NCBI GenBank assembly: GCA_016735225.1 | Contig: JAERRX010000149.1 | Location: 1-34,523, forward strand | DNA length: 34,523 nt | Direction of reading: 5' to 3' | Source: Sulfurimonas sp. | GTDB lineage: Bacteria; Campylobacterota; Campylobacteria; Campylobacterales; Sulfurimonadaceae | In this document: piece by piece, positions 2,223-13,097 of the stretch | Numbering within the stretch: the stretch's first letter is position 1 | Layout of the letters: the number at the start of each line of letters is the position of its first letter | Translations under genes and position numbers: made by a program | The notes under the pieces: generated by a model | The model's input: only the letters and a program-made list of their open reading frames with translations | Database searches by the model: none | Told to the model about the DNA's origin: nothing

Positions 2223-4235
2223 TTACGGTTCTACTATATTAAACCAAAATTTAAATTTATCTATTTTAGTTAAGAATTTATTAAATGCTTCTTTGTCTCC
2301 ACTAACTTTTATAGCACCTGATTTCATCAATTCTTCAAAAGTTGCTTCGCCTAAGCTTGTTTTATCCAAATCACTTCTGTTGAGAGTTATAGTAGCTGTA
2401 ACATCTTCTGAGATAAGTGAGTCAACACGAGGAGTAACAACTCCATCTTCGATGATTAGAGATCCTCTTTCTGCAACATCAGGCAAAATAATGTTGAAGT
2501 TATATTTCATCTCTTGTGCTTCTTTATCAGTACCGATAAATCTCATAGCAATATAGTTTAAGTATAAATCTAAAGACATTCCTCTAACCATATCAGGACC
2601 TGACATATCTGTTGAAGGTAGAACTTTAACTCCTGTTCTTAGCTCTTTTACAGCTGTTAAGTAGTAGTTTCTCCAAGCACCTGACTCTGTTTGATAAGCT
2701 AACTGCTCATAAGCATCAGCCAATAAATTTTTAGCATCTTGGTTTTTAGGTTCAGCAAATACTAGTTTGTTAAGAACTTCTCCAACCCAACGATACTCTC
2801 CTTTATCATATGATTTTTTAGCATTTAACAAGACTGCATCAGCCCCACCCATGAACTCAACATACTTTTTGCCTGATTCAACTGGCGGTAGTGGATTTAA
2901 GTTTGCAGGATTACCATCAAACCAACCAAAATATAGCTCATATTCAGCTTTGATATTGTGACTCATTGTCCCATAATAATCTCTATTTGCAAATGTTTTA
3001 TCTAGTGACTCTGGTAGTTTTAACATCTCTGAAATCTCTTTTGGAGTGTAACCATGGTTGGCTAAACGCAAAGTTTGATCGTGAGTAAATCTATATAAAC
3101 CTCTTGCTTTTTCTAAAAACTTAGTAATTTCTTTGTTACCCCAAGTTGGCCAATGGTGTGATCCAAAAGATACTTCCATATCATCGCCCCATTTTACTAA
3201 AGCTAGATCTATATAACTACTCCATTTTTGACCATTTCTTACTTTTGCACCTCGTAGAGTGTATAAGTTGTGAAAGTTATGAGTTATGATCTCTGCTTGA
3301 CAAAATGTTTTTAAGTCTGTGAAATAAAATATCATCTCTGATGGTGCTTCTGCTTCAGGAGTATAGACAAACTCAACATTTAAACCATCAACGACTTTAG
3401 TTATTCCAGTTTCACTACTTATGATTATAGTTGGATCAATAATGCCAGCTTTTCCTGTTGATAGAGTTTGCCCTAAGCCACTACCTATCATTCCTTTTGC
3501 ATCTTTTTTTAGCAAGTTACCATACATGTATGTAGATCTTCGTCCCATCGCATTTCCTGCCATGATGTTTTCGTTAACAGCATCATCAAACAAACCTTTT
3601 GGTCCATATAGTTTAACTTTACCACTTTCTATGTCTGCAACATCAACAACACCACGGATACCACCGAAGTGATCGATATGTGAGTGTGTGAATATGATCG
3701 CACTTACAGGTCGAAAACCTAACTCTTTGTTGATAAGATCTAGTGATGCTTTTGCAGTTTCAGCAGAAACAAGTGGGTCGATCACAATCCAACCTGTATC
3801 ACCTTCTATAAAAGATATATTTGAAAGGTCAAAACCTCTCACCTGATATACACGATCAGTAACTTTAAACAGACCATTGATACTGTTAAGTTTAGATTGT
3901 CTCCATAGACTTGGGTTTGTAGTTGAAGGAGCTTCATCTTTGATGAAGTCAAATTGTTTCATACTATAAACAACTTCTCCATTTTCATCTTTTATCTCTC
4001 CGCTATCTAAAGTAGCAATAAAGCCTTTGTTTGCGTTTTCAAAGTCAGTTCTGTCTTCAAATGGAAGATAAGACTTTAGAGCATCATTTTTCTTTTTAGT
4101 AAATGAAGTAGACTCTTTTTGAGTCTTGTCAGTTTTTATCTGTAAAACTTCTTTTTTTACATCGGTCTTAGTAGTGTTACAAGCTGTAAAAAATAGTGCA
4201 GTTGCTACACCTAAAGTAATCGCTGTTGATTTCAT
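2223..4235 (-). CDS. SdsA-type (linear/primary) alkylsulfatase, MBL-fold, predicted lipoprotein
   Basis: MBL motif THSHIDHFGG; further type III sulfatase motifs 'EAPSEM', 'HNLYTLRGAKVRNGQKWSSYID', 'SHHWPTWG'; lipobox-like 'FFTAC'. Confidence 0.85.
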   Translation of the reverse strand: MKSTAITLGVATALFFTACNTTKTDVKKEVLQIKTDKTQKESTSFTKKKNDALKSYLPFEDRTDFENANKGFIATLDSGEIKDENGEVVYSMKQFDFIKDEAPSTTNPSLWRQSKLNSINGLFKVTDRVYQVRGFDLSNISFIEGDTGWIVIDPLVSAETAKASLDLINKELGFRPVSAIIFTHSHIDHFGGIRGVVDVADIESGKVKLYGPKGLFDDAVNENIMAGNAMGRRSTYMYGNLLKKDAKGMIGSGLGQTLSTGKAGIIDPTIIISSETGITKVVDGLNVEFVYTPEAEAPSEMIFYFTDLKTFCQAEIITHNFHNLYTLRGAKVRNGQKWSSYIDLALVKWGDDMEVSFGSHHWPTWGNKEITKFLEKARGLYRFTHDQTLRLANHGYTPKEISEMLKLPESLDKTFANRDYYGTMSHNIKAEYELYFGWFDGNPANLNPLPPVESGKKYVEFMGGADAVLLNAKKSYDKGEYRWVGEVLNKLVFAEPKNQDAKNLLADAYEQLAYQTESGAWRNYYLTAVKELRTGVKVLPSTDMSGPDMVRGMSLDLYLNYIAMRFIGTDKEAQEMKYNFNIILPDVAERGSLIIEDGVVTPRVDSLISEDVTATITLNRSDLDKTSLGEATFEELMKSGAIKVSGDKEAFNKFLTKIDKFKFWFNIVEP

Positions 4236-4254
4236 TGTATTAATTTCCTTTTAA

Positions 4255-4276
4255 GTTTGGAGCATTAGCTCCAAAC
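4255..4276 (-). other. Intercistronic hairpin upstream of the alkylsulfatase RBS
   Basis: GTTTGGAGC-ATTA-GCTCCAAAC: perfect 9-bp stem with 4-nt loop, followed on the minus strand by AAAAGGAAATTAATACAATG. Confidence 0.6.
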
Positions 4277-4298
4277 ATGATCTATACTGATGATTATA

Positions 4299-5762
4299 TT
4301 ATTTTATCAATTCCACATCGTTAAACTGCCATTTTTTTGTAAAAACAGCATCTTTAGGACCATAAAAACGAGCCATCATAAAGAACTTATGACCTTTTTT
4401 TGTAGGTATCCAGTTAGCTTTTTTGCCTCTTGGTGCTTTTGGTCCTATATATATATCTGTAGTTCCATCTCTATTTACCTTAAAGCCTTTGTCTAAAGAA
4501 CTAACTCCAGCAGAGGGAACATTTCGGATAAATCCTGCTGTTTTCATGTCGTAAGCAGTAAGTGCCCAAAACATTTCTACAGGAACATTTGCTGGAACTC
4601 TTAGCTTATAGTTTTTACCACCATCAAGCCAAGCACCCTCTTTATCTTTAGCTACATTGAGATAAAAACTAGTGGCACCAAGATGTTTAATACTGCTAAA
4701 TGCCATGTAATATAGAGCGCCTCGACGGTTATAATCTAGGTGGCTTGCATATTCGAATATAAAGCTATGAAGTGTCGGTGGCATTGCATTAGTCCATCTT
4801 TTACCTTCATAATAAGGAGGTATCATATCTCCATTGTGGTATAAAAATGCCATATATTCATGTGCATCTTTTGCAGCATCATCTAAGATAGCATCACGAC
4901 GAGCATTGGTCTTGTAAGGTTGCCCTTTACTGATACCCATAGCCTCTAACATACCCATCATTGCTAAGTCTTTATCTTCAAGATATTCTTCTTCAAGAAT
5001 TTCATGTAGATTACGATATAAACCAGCATCAAACTTAACTATTCCATCGATATCTTTACCTGTTAGGTCAATATGACGAGTTGCTTTTGGATTGGCTGCT
5101 TGGGAAAAAGGATAAACTTCGATCTTCTTAATCAGATCAATTGCTTTTTTAAGTGTCTCTTTCTTCTTATCCTTCATGATAGTACGTAAAAAAGTAAAAC
5201 CATGGTAAGTACTTTGTTGAAATACTATATAACCAGAATGTGGAATATACCCTTTGTAGTTTGGTGGAATCATTAGATATTTTGCACCCAAGCCATGATC
5301 CTCACCATCCGCACCATAATCTTCAATAGGAGCATGCCAAGAATTTAGAAGTGTACCATACAGTACAATATCATTTTCACTAGCTGGGATCTTAACAACT
5401 ACTGGACCATCGTGTAGATCCCAAAAGAAATTTACATATTGAGTAGTATTGTTTGGTGTTGGGATAGCTCTCTTCCAATCTTGTATCTCCCCATGATAAA
5501 CAACATCGCCATTGTATTTCATACCCACCGCTTTATGTAGTGAATCATATATAGCCTTGTAGTTCATAAGAGGTTGAGCCCAAATAGCAATCTCTACTGC
5601 ACGACGATGTAGAGCTTCTTCTATCATTGTCATATTGCTAGGAGCTTTATGAGGAGCATATATTTCCAGTGCATCTTGCTTATCTTGAGAGGCATGAAGC
5701 CCACTAAACGAACCATAAATCACAAATAGCGTTAAGGCTATTACTTTGATACTTTTCTTCAC
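4299..5762 (-). CDS. DUF1254/DUF1214 domain-containing exported protein
   Basis: Signal peptide; 'FFWDLHDGPVVVKIPASE...LYGTLLNSWHAPIEDYG' and C-terminal 'ANWIPTKKGHKFFMMARFYGP' typical of DUF1254/DUF1214 proteins. Confidence 0.8.
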   Translation of the reverse strand: MKKSIKVIALTLFVIYGSFSGLHASQDKQDALEIYAPHKAPSNMTMIEEALHRRAVEIAIWAQPLMNYKAIYDSLHKAVGMKYNGDVVYHGEIQDWKRAIPTPNNTTQYVNFFWDLHDGPVVVKIPASENDIVLYGTLLNSWHAPIEDYGADGEDHGLGAKYLMIPPNYKGYIPHSGYIVFQQSTYHGFTFLRTIMKDKKKETLKKAIDLIKKIEVYPFSQAANPKATRHIDLTGKDIDGIVKFDAGLYRNLHEILEEEYLEDKDLAMMGMLEAMGISKGQPYKTNARRDAILDDAAKDAHEYMAFLYHNGDMIPPYYEGKRWTNAMPPTLHSFIFEYASHLDYNRRGALYYMAFSSIKHLGATSFYLNVAKDKEGAWLDGGKNYKLRVPANVPVEMFWALTAYDMKTAGFIRNVPSAGVSSLDKGFKVNRDGTTDIYIGPKAPRGKKANWIPTKKGHKFFMMARFYGPKDAVFTKKWQFNDVELIK

Positions 5763-8247: not shown

Positions 8248-8550
8248 TTAACTCTCTTTTGACAACTCTAACAGTAGATCTCTAATTTCACTTTTATCAA
8301 AGTAGATATTTAATGCCAACTCACTATTAAACTTTTTTAAAAGTTGATTTTTTTTAGACATTCTAAGCTCTTTGTCATCTTTTAAAAGAGCTAGTTCATC
8401 TTTTAGCTGTTTTTTATATCTGTTGATAATATCTTCTTTGCTTTGTATAGAACTATTTACTTTTACTGACTTAGAACTACGAAATGTAACTACTACAATA
8501 AGTATAAGTCCTATGATTCCTACTATTGAGTATAAAACCTCATCATTCAT
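8248..8550 (-). CDS. Small membrane protein of unknown function
   Basis: N-terminal TM helix 'LYSIVGIIGLILIVVVTF' then a charged helical region; overlaps the 3' end of the DUF188 gene by 8 nt. Confidence 0.6.
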   Translation of the reverse strand: MNDEVLYSIVGIIGLILIVVVTFRSSKSVKVNSSIQSKEDIINRYKKQLKDELALLKDDKELRMSKKNQLLKKFNSELALNIYFDKSEIRDLLLELSKES

Positions 8551-9013
8551 GTTCTGTCTTTATCTGCTTTTGTTTACTTAAAAAAGAGTTTAGTTGATTG
8601 GCAAATTGTTGTGCATCTTTAGTGCTAAAAGGTTTTGGTCCTTTTGTGAGTTCGCCACTATCTCTTATCTGTGCCATCAAGTCTCTCATGGCAAGGTATT
8701 GCTTTATATTATCTACACTATAAAGCTCTCCTCTATGGTCTATAGCATGGGCATTTTTTGTTATGACTCTATCTGCTAGTGGAATATCTGCTGTTATGAC
8801 TAGGTCACCAGCTTTGAGCATCTCTACTATTTTATCATCAGCTTCGTCAGCTCCAGCATCTACTATGATGTAGGTTATAAACTTACTTTTACCAATATCT
8901 ATCTTTTTGTTAGCAACTACATAGGTATCGATTTGAAGCCTTGTTATAGCACGATAGATAATTGGCTTTAAAATATTTGGAAAAGCATCTCCATCTATAT
9001 AAATATCAATCAT
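8543..9013 (-). CDS. YaiI/YqxD family protein (DUF188)
   Basis: 'IYIDGDAFPN', 'VDAGADEADDKIVEML..GDLVITADIPLADRVI', 'HRGELYS' typical of DUF188. Confidence 0.9.
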   Translation of the reverse strand: MIDIYIDGDAFPNILKPIIYRAITRLQIDTYVVANKKIDIGKSKFITYIIVDAGADEADDKIVEMLKAGDLVITADIPLADRVITKNAHAIDHRGELYSVDNIKQYLAMRDLMAQIRDSGELTKGPKPFSTKDAQQFANQLNSFLSKQKQIKTEHE

Positions 9014-10680
9014 CTCTTAGCATCTACCTTAAACTTATGTAGATTTGTCTCACCAAAGTCCATAACATGAACAGCACATGCTAGACATGGGTCAAATGAG
9101 TGTAAAACTCTTAAAACCTCCAAAGGTTTTGAAGTGTCTTCTATCTTTATGCCGACTAAAGCTTCCTCATAAGCCCCTCTGATGCCATCAAAGTTTTTAG
9201 GAGTAGCATTCCAAGTGGTAGGAGCTATGACAGAAAAGTTTTCTATCTTTGCATCTTTTATATTTACAAAGTGAGAGAGTGTTCCTCTAGGTACTTCAAA
9301 GAAAGCCCGACCTTTAGCATCTTTGCTTAGTGAGTCAAAGTCAAACTTTGTCCAAGTATCTGTGTCATAGTATTTTATGTTTTGTATTAGGTTTGAAACT
9401 AGTTTAAAAATATACTCACATATATAGCTAGTTTCTATTGCCCTAGTGGCATTTCTTCCTATGCTAGTTGATAGGTCGATAAGCTCTAAGTCTGTAGATG
9501 CTAAAAACTCATCTACAAAAGATTTTATAAGCTTGTTGTCTTTTTTATAGCTTATGATTACTCTTGCTAGTGGTCCTGTCTCCATAACTCTGCCATCATA
9601 TCTAGGAGCTTTTATCCAAGAATATTTGTCATCATTTTTTGCCGTTTTTAAGGTTGCATCTTCATTTAGGTCTGTATATTCGACCTCATTATCTAATGTT
9701 TCATTTTTGTACCATGCTCTGTCTATCTCTTCTGTTATTTTATCTTCATCAAAAGATGCAATATTTTCAAAGTCATGGTTATAGATAACACCTGCATCAA
9801 AGAGCTTTTTGTTCCCCTCTTCATAACCACCAACTGACAAAAAGTTTCCATTTGCTCTACCAACTCCAGCTTTTATCTCATCTTTATAGGCGATAGCTAA
9901 AAGTTTTGCATCTGGTAAATATGCTCTATCTATAAAATCTTTTGCCTCTTTTATGATAAATAGATAGTCATTTAGCCTTTGTGGGTTTAACATGTCAGCA
10001 ACACTTGTAATTCCACCAACAACTATGCTTTGAGGGTGTGGGGTTTTTCCGCCAAAAATAGCCACCGCCTTGCTTATATTTGTCTGAAATTTAAGAGCTT
10101 CAAAATAGTGAGAAATCATAATAAGGTTTTGCTCAGGAGTTAGCTTGTAAGCACTATGTCCCCAGTAAGCATTTGAAAATGGTCCCAGTTTTCCAGCATC
10201 TACAAATTTACCTAACTTTTCTAAAACATCTTCATAATGTGAGTGAGAATTTCTAAAAGGTTTTTTATGATACTTGTGTGCTTCTTTTGATGTAAGCTTT
10301 GCATCTGCACTCAAAGCTGAGGTAATATCTACAAAATCCAAAGAGTGAAGATGATAAAAATGAACAACATGGTCTTGTATAAAAAGTGCCATCGCCATCA
10401 AATCACGAATAATCTCGGCATTTTTTGGAAGCTCTAAAGAGTAAGCATCTTCAACACAGCTAACAGCCGCACGAAAGTGAGAGTTTGTGCAAACACCGCA
10501 AATTCGTCCTGCTAAAAGTCCCGCATCCCTAGGGTCTCTATCTTTTAGAATGATCTCTATTCCACGAAAAAGTTGCCCACTTACATAAGCCTCTCTAACT
10601 ACACCATTCTCATCTACTTCTACCTCAGCTCTTAAATGACCCTCTATTCTTGTTATGGGGTCTATTACTATTTTTTTCAT
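9010..10680 (-). CDS. [NiFe] hydrogenase large subunit
   Basis: N-terminal 'DPITRIEGHLRAEVEV', L1 motif 'RICGVCTNSHFRA', L2 motif 'SFDPCLACAVHV'; an 18-residue tail follows the C-terminal His. Confidence 0.95.
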   Translation of the reverse strand: MKKIVIDPITRIEGHLRAEVEVDENGVVREAYVSGQLFRGIEIILKDRDPRDAGLLAGRICGVCTNSHFRAAVSCVEDAYSLELPKNAEIIRDLMAMALFIQDHVVHFYHLHSLDFVDITSALSADAKLTSKEAHKYHKKPFRNSHSHYEDVLEKLGKFVDAGKLGPFSNAYWGHSAYKLTPEQNLIMISHYFEALKFQTNISKAVAIFGGKTPHPQSIVVGGITSVADMLNPQRLNDYLFIIKEAKDFIDRAYLPDAKLLAIAYKDEIKAGVGRANGNFLSVGGYEEGNKKLFDAGVIYNHDFENIASFDEDKITEEIDRAWYKNETLDNEVEYTDLNEDATLKTAKNDDKYSWIKAPRYDGRVMETGPLARVIISYKKDNKLIKSFVDEFLASTDLELIDLSTSIGRNATRAIETSYICEYIFKLVSNLIQNIKYYDTDTWTKFDFDSLSKDAKGRAFFEVPRGTLSHFVNIKDAKIENFSVIAPTTWNATPKNFDGIRGAYEEALVGIKIEDTSKPLEVLRVLHSFDPCLACAVHVMDFGETNLHKFKVDAKR

Positions 10681-13097
10681 TATTTCTCATCCTCTTTATA
10701 AACTCTTTCATTAGCAAACTTATCTGCAAAGCCAATCTCTGTACATGCCATACAACCATGACCAGCTTGAACAGGCCAGCTAGTTCCTTTGTTAAACTTC
10801 ATAGTTGGGCAGTTTACATTTGCATAGGGACCCTTGCATCCCATCTCAAACAAACAAAAACCTTTTTTAGCTCCCTCGTCTCCCCACTCTTGCACAAACT
10901 CACCTAGTTCATAGTGACCTCTTCTCTCGCAGTTGTCATGAACTCTTCCCTCATAAGCCCATAAAGGTCTGTTAAACTTATCAAGAGCAGGTAACTCCTC
11001 AAACATTATATATGAAAGTAGTGTTCCTACTATATTTGTTGGGTTTGTGGGACAACCTGGAAGGTTTATGATGTCCTCTCTTTGTAGGGCTTCGCCTACT
11101 CCAACGGCACCAGTTGGGTTTGGCTTTGCTGCTACTATGCCACCATCTAAAGCACAACTACCAACCGCTAAAACCAAAGAAGCATCTTTTGCACACTCTC
11201 GCAATAGCTCAACTCCAGTCTTAGCATCGGCACCTATTCTTAAAAACTTTCCATCCATACCCATAGGAACAGCACCCTCAACTATTAAGATATACTCACC
11301 CTTTTTATTTTTAACAATATCTTCTAGTATTGTTTCACTCCGATCACCGCTCGCACTCATAAGTAGCTCATGATAATCAAGAGAGATATAGTCAAATATC
11401 AAGTCTTCTATACTAGGGTTTGTTGATTTTATAAATGCTTCAGAGTTTCCACTACAGTCACTTAACTCTAGCCAGATAATAGGAATCTTGTTTAGCATCG
11501 TCACCCCAGTATCTACAACTTGCTCAAAATTTGGATGCAGTTGCATATTTGCCGTTACCATCGACACCCAGCTATTTACCTCTGACTTGGCTATATCAAG
11601 GGAGTCCATCGCTGCTTGTAGGTTTTTTGTACTTAGTTTATTTACGGGGTTTAGTGTGTTAAATTTATCGAGTCTTTTTTGTACCTTTTGTATCTCTTTT
11701 TCTCTTTTTATATCCTCGGGATTTTTTATAGGTATATTTGGGTCTATGAGATGCTGTGAGTCTTCTATAACATCTTCAATCATTACCTTGCATCTTCCAC
11801 AAACCCTACCAGCTTGACTAAAGTCTGAGAGTTGCCCAAACGAAGAGATACCTGTTTGTTTTACTATATCTACTAGGTCTTGATGATAAACATTCTCACA
11901 GCTACAGATGAGTCTTCCTCTTTCGCCAAGAAGTCTGTTTTCATATAGATAGCCAATATCAACCTTTTCTTCACTCTCTATGAGTGACTCAACATAGGCT
12001 ATATCTACATTTGAGTTTATTCCTATAAATTTTCTTAGCTTATCATCATCTATAAAGTACTCATCTATTCTACTATCTTTTTTTGAGCTTATGAGTACTT
12101 TTTCATACTTTGAAGTAAACTTTGGAGAGTTCACTTCAACTAAGTCAAACTCTCCAACTTTGAGCATATCTACACTAATATCAAGCTCAAACTTTTTTAA
12201 ATCTTTTTGTAGTATGTGAGAAATAGCACAATCAGACTCTAAAATACACTCCTTAACATGCCCTGCCACAAAACCAAACTCCTCTACCTCTGCACACTCT
12301 CCAACAGCATATATATCTTTATCTTCACTTTGCATATATCTGTTTGTCAATACACCCTTGTTGCATCTAATATCATCTGCAAAATCTTCAATATTTGGCT
12401 TGATGCCAACACCAAACACAAGAAAAGGGTTTTGTATAGTTAGTTTTTTTGTTTTTAGTAGTGTTATCTGAGAATTTTCTATAACTTTATCGACAATCTC
12501 ATCTTCATAAGATATATTTATCTTTCCACCATTAGTGTAGCAATCATCGATAATCTTTATAGCATCTATACTTAAATGTTTAGAATATAGATGTTTAGCT
12601 CTTACAAGTAGAGTGATTTTTGATACATTTGGCATCTCGTTTAGAGTTTCTAAAATCTCAAGGCTTATAGGTCCACTACCGACAACAACCACCTCTTTTT
12701 CTTTTACACCCTCTCTTATCATTTGACAATCATCTGCATTTCTAAAAACAGCCGCATTTGAGATAGCATCTATGTTAAAAAGAGAGATAGGAATAGAACC
12801 CGTAGCTATAATGAGCTTATCATAAGTAAACATCGAGTTTTTAGAAAATACTCGTTTAGCTTTTTTGTCTATCTTTATGATCTTTTGACCTAGCTCTATC
12901 TTAACCATGGGGTCAAGATGCAAAGATATATCAGCAGTTGTTTTGGAAGCATCTAACAACCTACAAAGATGTATCCTATCATAAGGCATATATGTTTCTT
13001 CGCTCAAAACAGTTACCTCTACAGAAGGCTCAAGCTTCTTAAAGTTGTTCGCTAAATATGCTGCAGCGATACCGCCACCAATGATAATAACTCTCAT
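10680..13097 (-). CDS. Fusion protein: FAD-dependent pyridine-nucleotide-disulfide-type oxidoreductase + BFD-type [2Fe-2S] domain + [NiFe] hydrogenase small subunit
   Basis: One 805-aa ORF: 'MRVIIIGGGIAAAYLANNF' and 'GSGPIS' dinucleotide-binding motifs; 'CSCENVYHQDL...GRVCGRCK' (CxC...CxxC) BFD motif; then 'WLELSDCSGNSEAFIKSTNPSIEDL', 'GSCALDGG', 'LPGCPTNP', 'HDNCERR...FCLFEMGCKG...NCP...GHGCMACTE' hydrogenase small-subunit motifs. Confidence 0.92.
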   Translation of the reverse strand: MRVIIIGGGIAAAYLANNFKKLEPSVEVTVLSEETYMPYDRIHLCRLLDASKTTADISLHLDPMVKIELGQKIIKIDKKAKRVFSKNSMFTYDKLIIATGSIPISLFNIDAISNAAVFRNADDCQMIREGVKEKEVVVVGSGPISLEILETLNEMPNVSKITLLVRAKHLYSKHLSIDAIKIIDDCYTNGGKINISYEDEIVDKVIENSQITLLKTKKLTIQNPFLVFGVGIKPNIEDFADDIRCNKGVLTNRYMQSEDKDIYAVGECAEVEEFGFVAGHVKECILESDCAISHILQKDLKKFELDISVDMLKVGEFDLVEVNSPKFTSKYEKVLISSKKDSRIDEYFIDDDKLRKFIGINSNVDIAYVESLIESEEKVDIGYLYENRLLGERGRLICSCENVYHQDLVDIVKQTGISSFGQLSDFSQAGRVCGRCKVMIEDVIEDSQHLIDPNIPIKNPEDIKREKEIQKVQKRLDKFNTLNPVNKLSTKNLQAAMDSLDIAKSEVNSWVSMVTANMQLHPNFEQVVDTGVTMLNKIPIIWLELSDCSGNSEAFIKSTNPSIEDLIFDYISLDYHELLMSASGDRSETILEDIVKNKKGEYILIVEGAVPMGMDGKFLRIGADAKTGVELLRECAKDASLVLAVGSCALDGGIVAAKPNPTGAVGVGEALQREDIINLPGCPTNPTNIVGTLLSYIMFEELPALDKFNRPLWAYEGRVHDNCERRGHYELGEFVQEWGDEGAKKGFCLFEMGCKGPYANVNCPTMKFNKGTSWPVQAGHGCMACTEIGFADKFANERVYKEDEK

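Follow-up and report, generated by a model that had tools for sequence, protein, structure and literature searches.

What could a [NiFe] hydrogenase do with a nitrite-reductase-like electron module built into its small subunit? The question is raised by a gene in a 34,523-nucleotide stretch of Sulfurimonas sp. DNA (assembly GCA_016735225.1, contig JAERRX010000149.1; hereafter the window), in which a single open reading frame (ORF) starts with a NirB-like domain for FAD and NAD(P), continues with a [2Fe-2S] domain of the BFD type and a linker, and ends in the small subunit of a group 1 [NiFe] hydrogenase. The gene is a further member of a family of fused hydrogenases that is conserved and had been noticed before, though not characterised; its most likely function, which we consider probable, is the cytoplasmic H2-dependent reduction of NAD(P)+. 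The account below builds on what was seen directly: the domains present, the conserved ligands, the lost export features, the single clade and the neighbouring genes.

The fused gene and its distribution

Above the curated Pfam cut-offs, the predicted protein matches Pyr_redox_2 and Fer2_BFD (Table 1), followed by Oxidored_q6 over residues 548-695 (9e-30) and NiFe_hyd_SSU_C over residues 715-795 (5e-28). Among the NCBIfam profiles, TIGR00391 (hydA) covers residues 490-795 at 356.8 bits (cut-off, 179.5), and TIGR02374 (NirB) spans residues 4-447, covering both the flavoprotein and the BFD parts. The NirB score of 139 falls far short of the equivalog cut-off, which is to be expected when only part of NirB is present. 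Because of this NirB match, and because the four BFD cysteines (C398, C400, C433 and C436) are invariant in all 117 copies described below, the N-terminal part can be assigned to the NirB-type module. The best PDB matches of the small-subunit part are group 1 enzymes. An AlphaFold2 model computed on the family alignment, with a mean predicted local distance difference test (pLDDT) score of 76.5, mostly 80-96 in the flavoprotein and good in the BFD part, supports the N-terminal fold only. The three-domain fusion in one ORF proposed in the initial annotation is borne out by these Pfam and NCBIfam matches. The start of the adjoining [NiFe] large-subunit gene overlaps the stop codon of the fusion by one base; both CxxC ligand pairs of its product are present, as is a C-terminal extension beyond the final His.

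The occurrence of the fusion was surveyed in 398 Campylobacterota genomes and in a scan of 85,462 species genomes, which gave 148 relatives, the best 80 of which were used. The 117 intact copies correspond to 103 distinct sequences and, as the genome sets overlap, are not independent. A full-length fusion is found in 38 of the 398 Campylobacterota genomes, some of them single-contig, and two further genomes hold an interrupted copy (G325) and a contig-end copy (G393); in this set, the family labels f2 and f3, which are the two largest, are without the fusion. The best 80 of the 148 relatives stem mostly from Sulfurimonas, Sulfurovum, Sulfuricurvum and other Campylobacterota, and include two gammaproteobacteria, Hydrogenovibrio sp. 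3SP14C1 and Thiomicrorhabdus sp. ZW0627. A frameshift or an assembly join can be ruled out, because full-length co-linear homologues with 51-82% identity are present in complete genomes and all intact copies (117/117) are fused, so that the uninterrupted frame is upheld. Nor do homologues encode the two halves as separate genes, the only non-full-length copies (L070, L071 and L145) being interrupted or truncated. One fusion, ~54% identical to that of the window, comes from a record titled Helicobacter pylori PMSS1 MAG (metagenome-assembled genome; L131), a title that is probably mislabelled. At three loci (L046, L047 and L064), judged on adjacency only, no large-subunit gene was found adjoining the fused gene.

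Cluster ligands, decayed leader and origin

The small-subunit part displays the group 1 pattern, combining the hydA and NiFe_hyd_SSU_C matches with the His/three-Cys distal and three-Cys medial sites. The distal ligands H720, C723, C748 and C754 are invariant in the 117 copies, as is the medial C763, while C782 and C785 are invariant bar two or three sequence-end gaps. The proximal site departs from the four-cysteine [4Fe-4S] motif: C548, C648 and C682 are invariant throughout, and Asn551 takes the place of the second cysteine. The core described as complete in the initial annotation hence keeps its distal and medial ligands, but not its full proximal set. Among the periplasmic group 1 enzymes of Campylobacterota, one class shares this Asn (CAGNS) and another carries CTGCS; the campylobacterotal group 2 enzymes have the Asn as well (CNGNT). 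Because an Asn at this proximal position is known in groups 1f and 2a (PMC5364354), Asn551 denotes a variant and is compatible with group 1. PMC4744846 calls the subgroup-specific Fe-S binding sites not conserved; contrary to this, the Fe-S ligands are conserved with one substitution.

Between the BFD domain and the core, the fusion aligns with the twin-arginine translocation (Tat) leader of its unfused relatives. A hidden Markov model built solely from unfused leaders gave more than 10 bits to all 117 linkers (median 25) and to only 2/2340 shuffled linkers. The RRxF motif, present in 40/40 unfused relatives, occurs in 0/117 linkers, and the mean of the maximum 17-residue hydropathy drops from 1.38 in unfused leaders to 0.25 in linkers. 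At the other end of the protein, the tail beyond the last cysteine has a median length of 22 residues, without a membrane anchor. The linker is apparently a decayed Tat leader, and a formerly exported enzyme has apparently turned cytoplasmic, its location being presumed from the loss of the twin arginines. The absence of a Tat signal and of a C-terminal anchor noted in the initial annotation thus extends to the whole family and backs the cytoplasmic location that it proposed.

In a tree of the concatenated subunits, with thin taxon sampling outside Campylobacterota, the fusions form one clade (ultrafast bootstrap 99) beside the sampled group 1 enzymes and far from group 2; in PMC4744846, relatives of the fused enzyme are placed in group 1b. 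Group 2 genes located in the same clusters are separate in this tree and only 27-32% identical to the fusion. The fusion enzyme was also rejected as being the group II cytoplasmic hydrogenase of S. denitrificans, because several of the same clusters hold a separate group 2 pair. The picture that we favour is that of a two-subunit cytoplasmic [NiFe] hydrogenase derived from a once-exported group 1 enzyme, whose small subunit would have gained the N-terminal NADH-entry half of a NirB-like enzyme while the old Tat leader became a linker.

Table 1. Coordinates of the features of the fused hydrogenase in the window, and loci with an adjoining Ech-type cluster
Feature	Residues	Position or loci	Strand	Remark
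Fused small-subunit gene		10680..13097	(-)	Uninterrupted ORF, 805 aa
Pyr_redox_2 FAD/NAD(P) domain	1-270	12288..13097	(-)	Pfam 1.4e-39
Second dinucleotide motif, GSGPIS	140-145	12663..12680	(-)	Family GxGP[IL][GAS]
Arg166, end of second Rossmann beta-2 strand	166	12600..12602	(-)	Arg in 115/117
Fer2_BFD [2Fe-2S] domain	396-445	11763..11912	(-)	Pfam 2e-9
Linker, apparently a decayed Tat leader	447-536	11490..11759	(-)	RR and hydrophobic core lost
Hydrogenase small-subunit core	537-798	10704..11489	(-)	Proximal, distal and medial cluster ligands
Asn551 replacing second proximal-cluster cysteine	551	11445..11447	(-)	Asn in 117/117
[NiFe] large subunit		9010..10680	(-)	556 aa; RICGVC and DPCLAC motifs
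Ech-type cluster upstream of fusion		L056-L059, L062, L065-L068
Ech-type cluster downstream of fusion		L035, L040, L041, L050

Coenzyme, proposed electron path and Ech-type pairing

Glycines 7 and 9 of the FAD motif, and glycines 140 and 142 of the second motif together with Glu147, are invariant in the 117 copies. NAD(P) binding had initially been doubted on account of the GSGPIS sequence, a doubt corrected by the family: residue 145 is Gly in 77, Ala in 32 and Ser in only 8 of the 117 copies. As this residue is mostly Gly, most members have a regular second dinucleotide motif and GSGPIS is a minor variant, which weakens its interpretation as a missing NAD(P) site. The best fold matches of the N-terminal part are NADH-dependent ferredoxin reductases; BphA4 was matched as well, along with its E175/T176R/Q177 mutants, altered at the Arg166 loop. 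At the equivalent place, Glu favours NADH and Arg favours NADPH. With modest confidence, we infer a preference for NADPH in Campylobacterota because of the Arg at position 166, where the beta-2 strand ends; the exceptions are a Gln in L121 and an Ile then Asp in a Thiomicrorhabdus copy (L143:6001-8406).

The FAD domain also contains a cysteine, Cys45 (12963-12965), that is conserved in 116/117 fusions and replaced by Ser in E. coli NirB. Together with the membership of CoA-disulfide reductases and ferredoxin reductases in the flavoprotein superfamily, and with hosts that are mostly sulfur oxidisers, this residue could point to an acceptor other than NAD(P), namely ferredoxin, a sulfur compound or a membrane partner. 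We regard such an acceptor as unlikely: the redox activity of Cys45 is only putative, a functional NAD(P) site would be expected to retain GxGP[IL][GAS]xE and Arg166, as is the case here, and no conserved partner gene was found besides the Ech-type and maturation genes.

In the reaction that we propose, electrons from H2 would enter at the [NiFe] site of the large subunit, reach the proximal [4Fe-4S] cluster (three Cys and Asn551), continue through the medial [3Fe-4S] cluster to the distal [4Fe-4S] cluster (His720 and three Cys), and leave via the BFD [2Fe-2S] cluster and FAD to NAD(P)+. The passage from the Fe-S relay to [2Fe-2S] and FAD, already suggested in the initial annotation, is the simplest interpretation, and no diaphorase gene lies nearby. 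Cofactor occupancy, acceptor, direction and physiology are what we infer for the fused enzyme; its role would be the H2-driven supply of NAD(P)H for CO2 fixation and biosynthesis, the campylobacterotal enzymes being NADPH-preferring, given Arg166.

Several points weigh against this proposal. The medial [3Fe-4S] cluster of group 1 enzymes is of high potential, an uncommon trait in hydrogenases linked to NAD(P). The AlphaFold2 model consists of one chain without the large subunit; its cluster-binding C-terminal part is poor, residues 717-782 having a pLDDT below 50. Coenzyme preference may vary across the family, given the Arg166 exceptions, and the window's own MAG (82% complete) shows no Ech-type hydrogenase of the kind described below. 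Finally, PMC4744846 reports no hydrogenase activity in any fraction of T. crunogena XCL-2, which carries the homologue.

This lack of activity would be accounted for if the enzyme were decaying, inactive or an H2 sensor, and broken copies do exist. In G325, a single contig, the fusion (L070:3826-9012) is split by two insertion elements, with a DDE transposase gene and an rve-type integrase gene, and the large subunit is intact; in G334 (L036), an insertion of ~2 kb including an opposite-strand SulP-type sulfate permease gene separates the fusion from its large subunit. The catalytic and cluster residues are nevertheless invariant across the 103 distinct sequences, and in five near-complete genomes (G129, G327, G126, G283 and G304) the large subunit of the fusion is the only PF00374 match and HypD is kept (5/5), whereas three genomes without any [NiFe] hydrogenase are also without HypD. 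Since some of the same clusters moreover hold a separate group 2 hydrogenase, loss of function or a sensory role appears improbable, the least credible of the readings considered. G393 (97% complete, 130 contigs) is an exception, with the fusion present and no HypD found. In the window's MAG, the fusion enzyme is the only hydrogenase match, accompanied by HypD and one HycI-type protease.

In many relatives, the fusion adjoins a same-strand cluster of six genes encoding NuoL-, NuoH-, NuoB-, NuoC-, NuoD- and NuoI-like proteins. This cluster matched no NCBIfam Ech model; it is read as a group 4 Ech-type hydrogenase because of its Nuo-like gene content and of the RVCGLC and DPCMSC ligands retained by its NuoD-like subunit. 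Two opposite orders were observed (Table 1): Ech precedes the fusion at nine loci, 1-3 bp apart (one more with a 2.3-kb gap), and follows the fusion and its large subunit at four loci, with an overlap of 4-19 bases (one more with a 2.7-kb gap). The existence of two orders speaks for a repeated association, and gene spacing by itself suggests co-transcription. The fusion is present in 21/27 genomes with this Ech type, which occurs in 21/40 genomes with the fusion vs 6/358 without across the phylum, and in 16/30 vs 1/22 within the family (Fisher p = 2e-4), p-values being inflated by the shared ancestry of the genomes.

Within the preferred scheme of H2-dependent NAD(P)+ reduction, the Ech-type enzyme, encoded in the same gene string, would exchange electrons between H2 and ferredoxin. 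The tight or overlapping junctions, the two orders and the strong co-occurrence also suit a scheme in which H2 is an internal carrier: the fusion would oxidise NAD(P)H to H2, from which Ech and the proton-motive force would generate reduced ferredoxin for the reductive tricarboxylic acid (TCA) cycle, or, in reverse, Ech would produce H2 from ferredoxin and the fusion would convert it to NAD(P)H. We hold this scheme to be possible but not favoured, as no such Ech was seen in roughly half of the genomes with the fusion, among them the window's MAG and several that are near-complete, the group 1 relay with its medial [3Fe-4S] site favours H2 uptake, and the relatedness of the genomes makes the p-value overstate their independence. 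It is likewise a tentative suggestion that fusion and Ech form an operon-encoded H2-mediated transhydrogenase between NADP(H) and ferredoxin, in which Ech would tie the low-potential step to the proton gradient; if so, autotrophs using the reductive TCA cycle would obtain reduced ferredoxin without Rnf or Nfn.

A nifH gene above cut-off is also commoner with the fusion (25/40 vs 46/358 genomes without; within the family, p = 0.01). This association is weaker, and recycling of nitrogenase-derived H2 was rejected as the main role; it is not required, because some sole-hydrogenase genomes are without nifH.

If H2-dependent NAD(P)+ reduction is correct, the enzyme would represent a further independent wiring of a [NiFe] hydrogenase to pyridine nucleotides, in which a group 1 respiratory enzyme was made soluble, its export signal reused as a linker and a nitrite-reductase electron module added. 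This bears on how autotrophic sulfur oxidisers use H2 to gain NAD(P)H and reduced ferredoxin, and makes an unexplained 'inactive' enzyme testable, the Ech pairing being the most interesting lead.

Elsewhere in the window, a YaiI/YqxD (DUF188) gene (8543-9013) comes directly after the large subunit, a place held by a 157-aa gene in the closest relative (L033), and an alkyl-sulfatase-type metallo-hydrolase adjoins a DUF1254/DUF1214 protein (2223-5762).

Comparison with known systems

The architecture is not new. The oversized small subunit of XCL-2 goes back to Scott 2006, as cited in PMC4744846, and the latter (Hansen and Perner 2016) gives the same architecture, without Tat signal, for XCL-2 and five relatives: Sulfuricurvum kujiense, Sulfurovum sp. 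AR, Sulfurimonas autotrophica, Arcobacter nitrofigilis and T. microaerophilum. According to the published descriptions, the small subunit of the cluster I hydrogenase of Thiomicrospira (Hydrogenovibrio) crunogena XCL-2 and SP-41 has 813 aa and includes a pyridine nucleotide-disulfide oxidoreductase domain, and there is neither a Tat motif nor a cytochrome b; the membrane activity of SP-41 is ascribed to another cluster in PMC6501319. The window gene shares the fused subunit of ~800 aa, the absence of Tat and the adjoining large subunit, and Sulfurovum sp. AR was itself recovered in the same family (L146). The term BFD was not found in PMC4744846, and the accessible parts of PMC4744846 and PMC6501319 do not mention the BFD domain, the relation to NirB, the decayed leader or the Ech pairing. 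Our literature search found no characterised enzyme of the fused architecture, and in the literature found its construction, its breadth of retention and its pairing with a second hydrogenase are not worked out. Added here are the NirB/BFD identity, the complete relay with its Asn ligand, the leader-to-linker origin, the monophyletic clade, the sole-[NiFe]-hydrogenase genomes that keep HypD, and the operon-like Ech-type pairing in two opposite orders.

Among characterised groups, the campylobacterotal group 1b HydAB enzymes are ~41-49% (large subunit) and ~44-56% (small-subunit core) identical to the fusion enzyme, and many share the proximal Asn (CAGNS); they differ by their RRxF Tat leader, their C-terminal anchor and, often, a cytochrome b gene. 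Like the fusion, NirB has in its N-terminal half an FAD/NAD domain that precedes a CxC...CxxC BFD, with YDRxHL and GEC motifs, but it continues into a siroheme half where the fusion has a hydrogenase small subunit; E. coli NirB matches the fusion N-terminus at 23% and has a Glu near the Arg166 position. In NirB, the FAD and BFD module hands electrons from NADH to the catalytic part. The overall reaction proposed here, between H2 and NAD(P)+, resembles that of group 3b/3d hydrogenases, in which the diaphorase parts are unrelated and reside on separate subunits, whereas the catalytic subunits of the fusion enzyme are group 1-like; no Hox/Hyd diaphorase domain was found in the fusion protein or the neighbouring genes scanned. 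Finally, phenylglyoxylate dehydrogenase PadH and aldehyde oxidoreductase AorE (8c0z_E) are flavoproteins of the same superfamily that connect NAD with the Fe-S clusters of their catalytic partner, and differ from the fusion in being separate, unfused subunits of enzymes other than hydrogenases.

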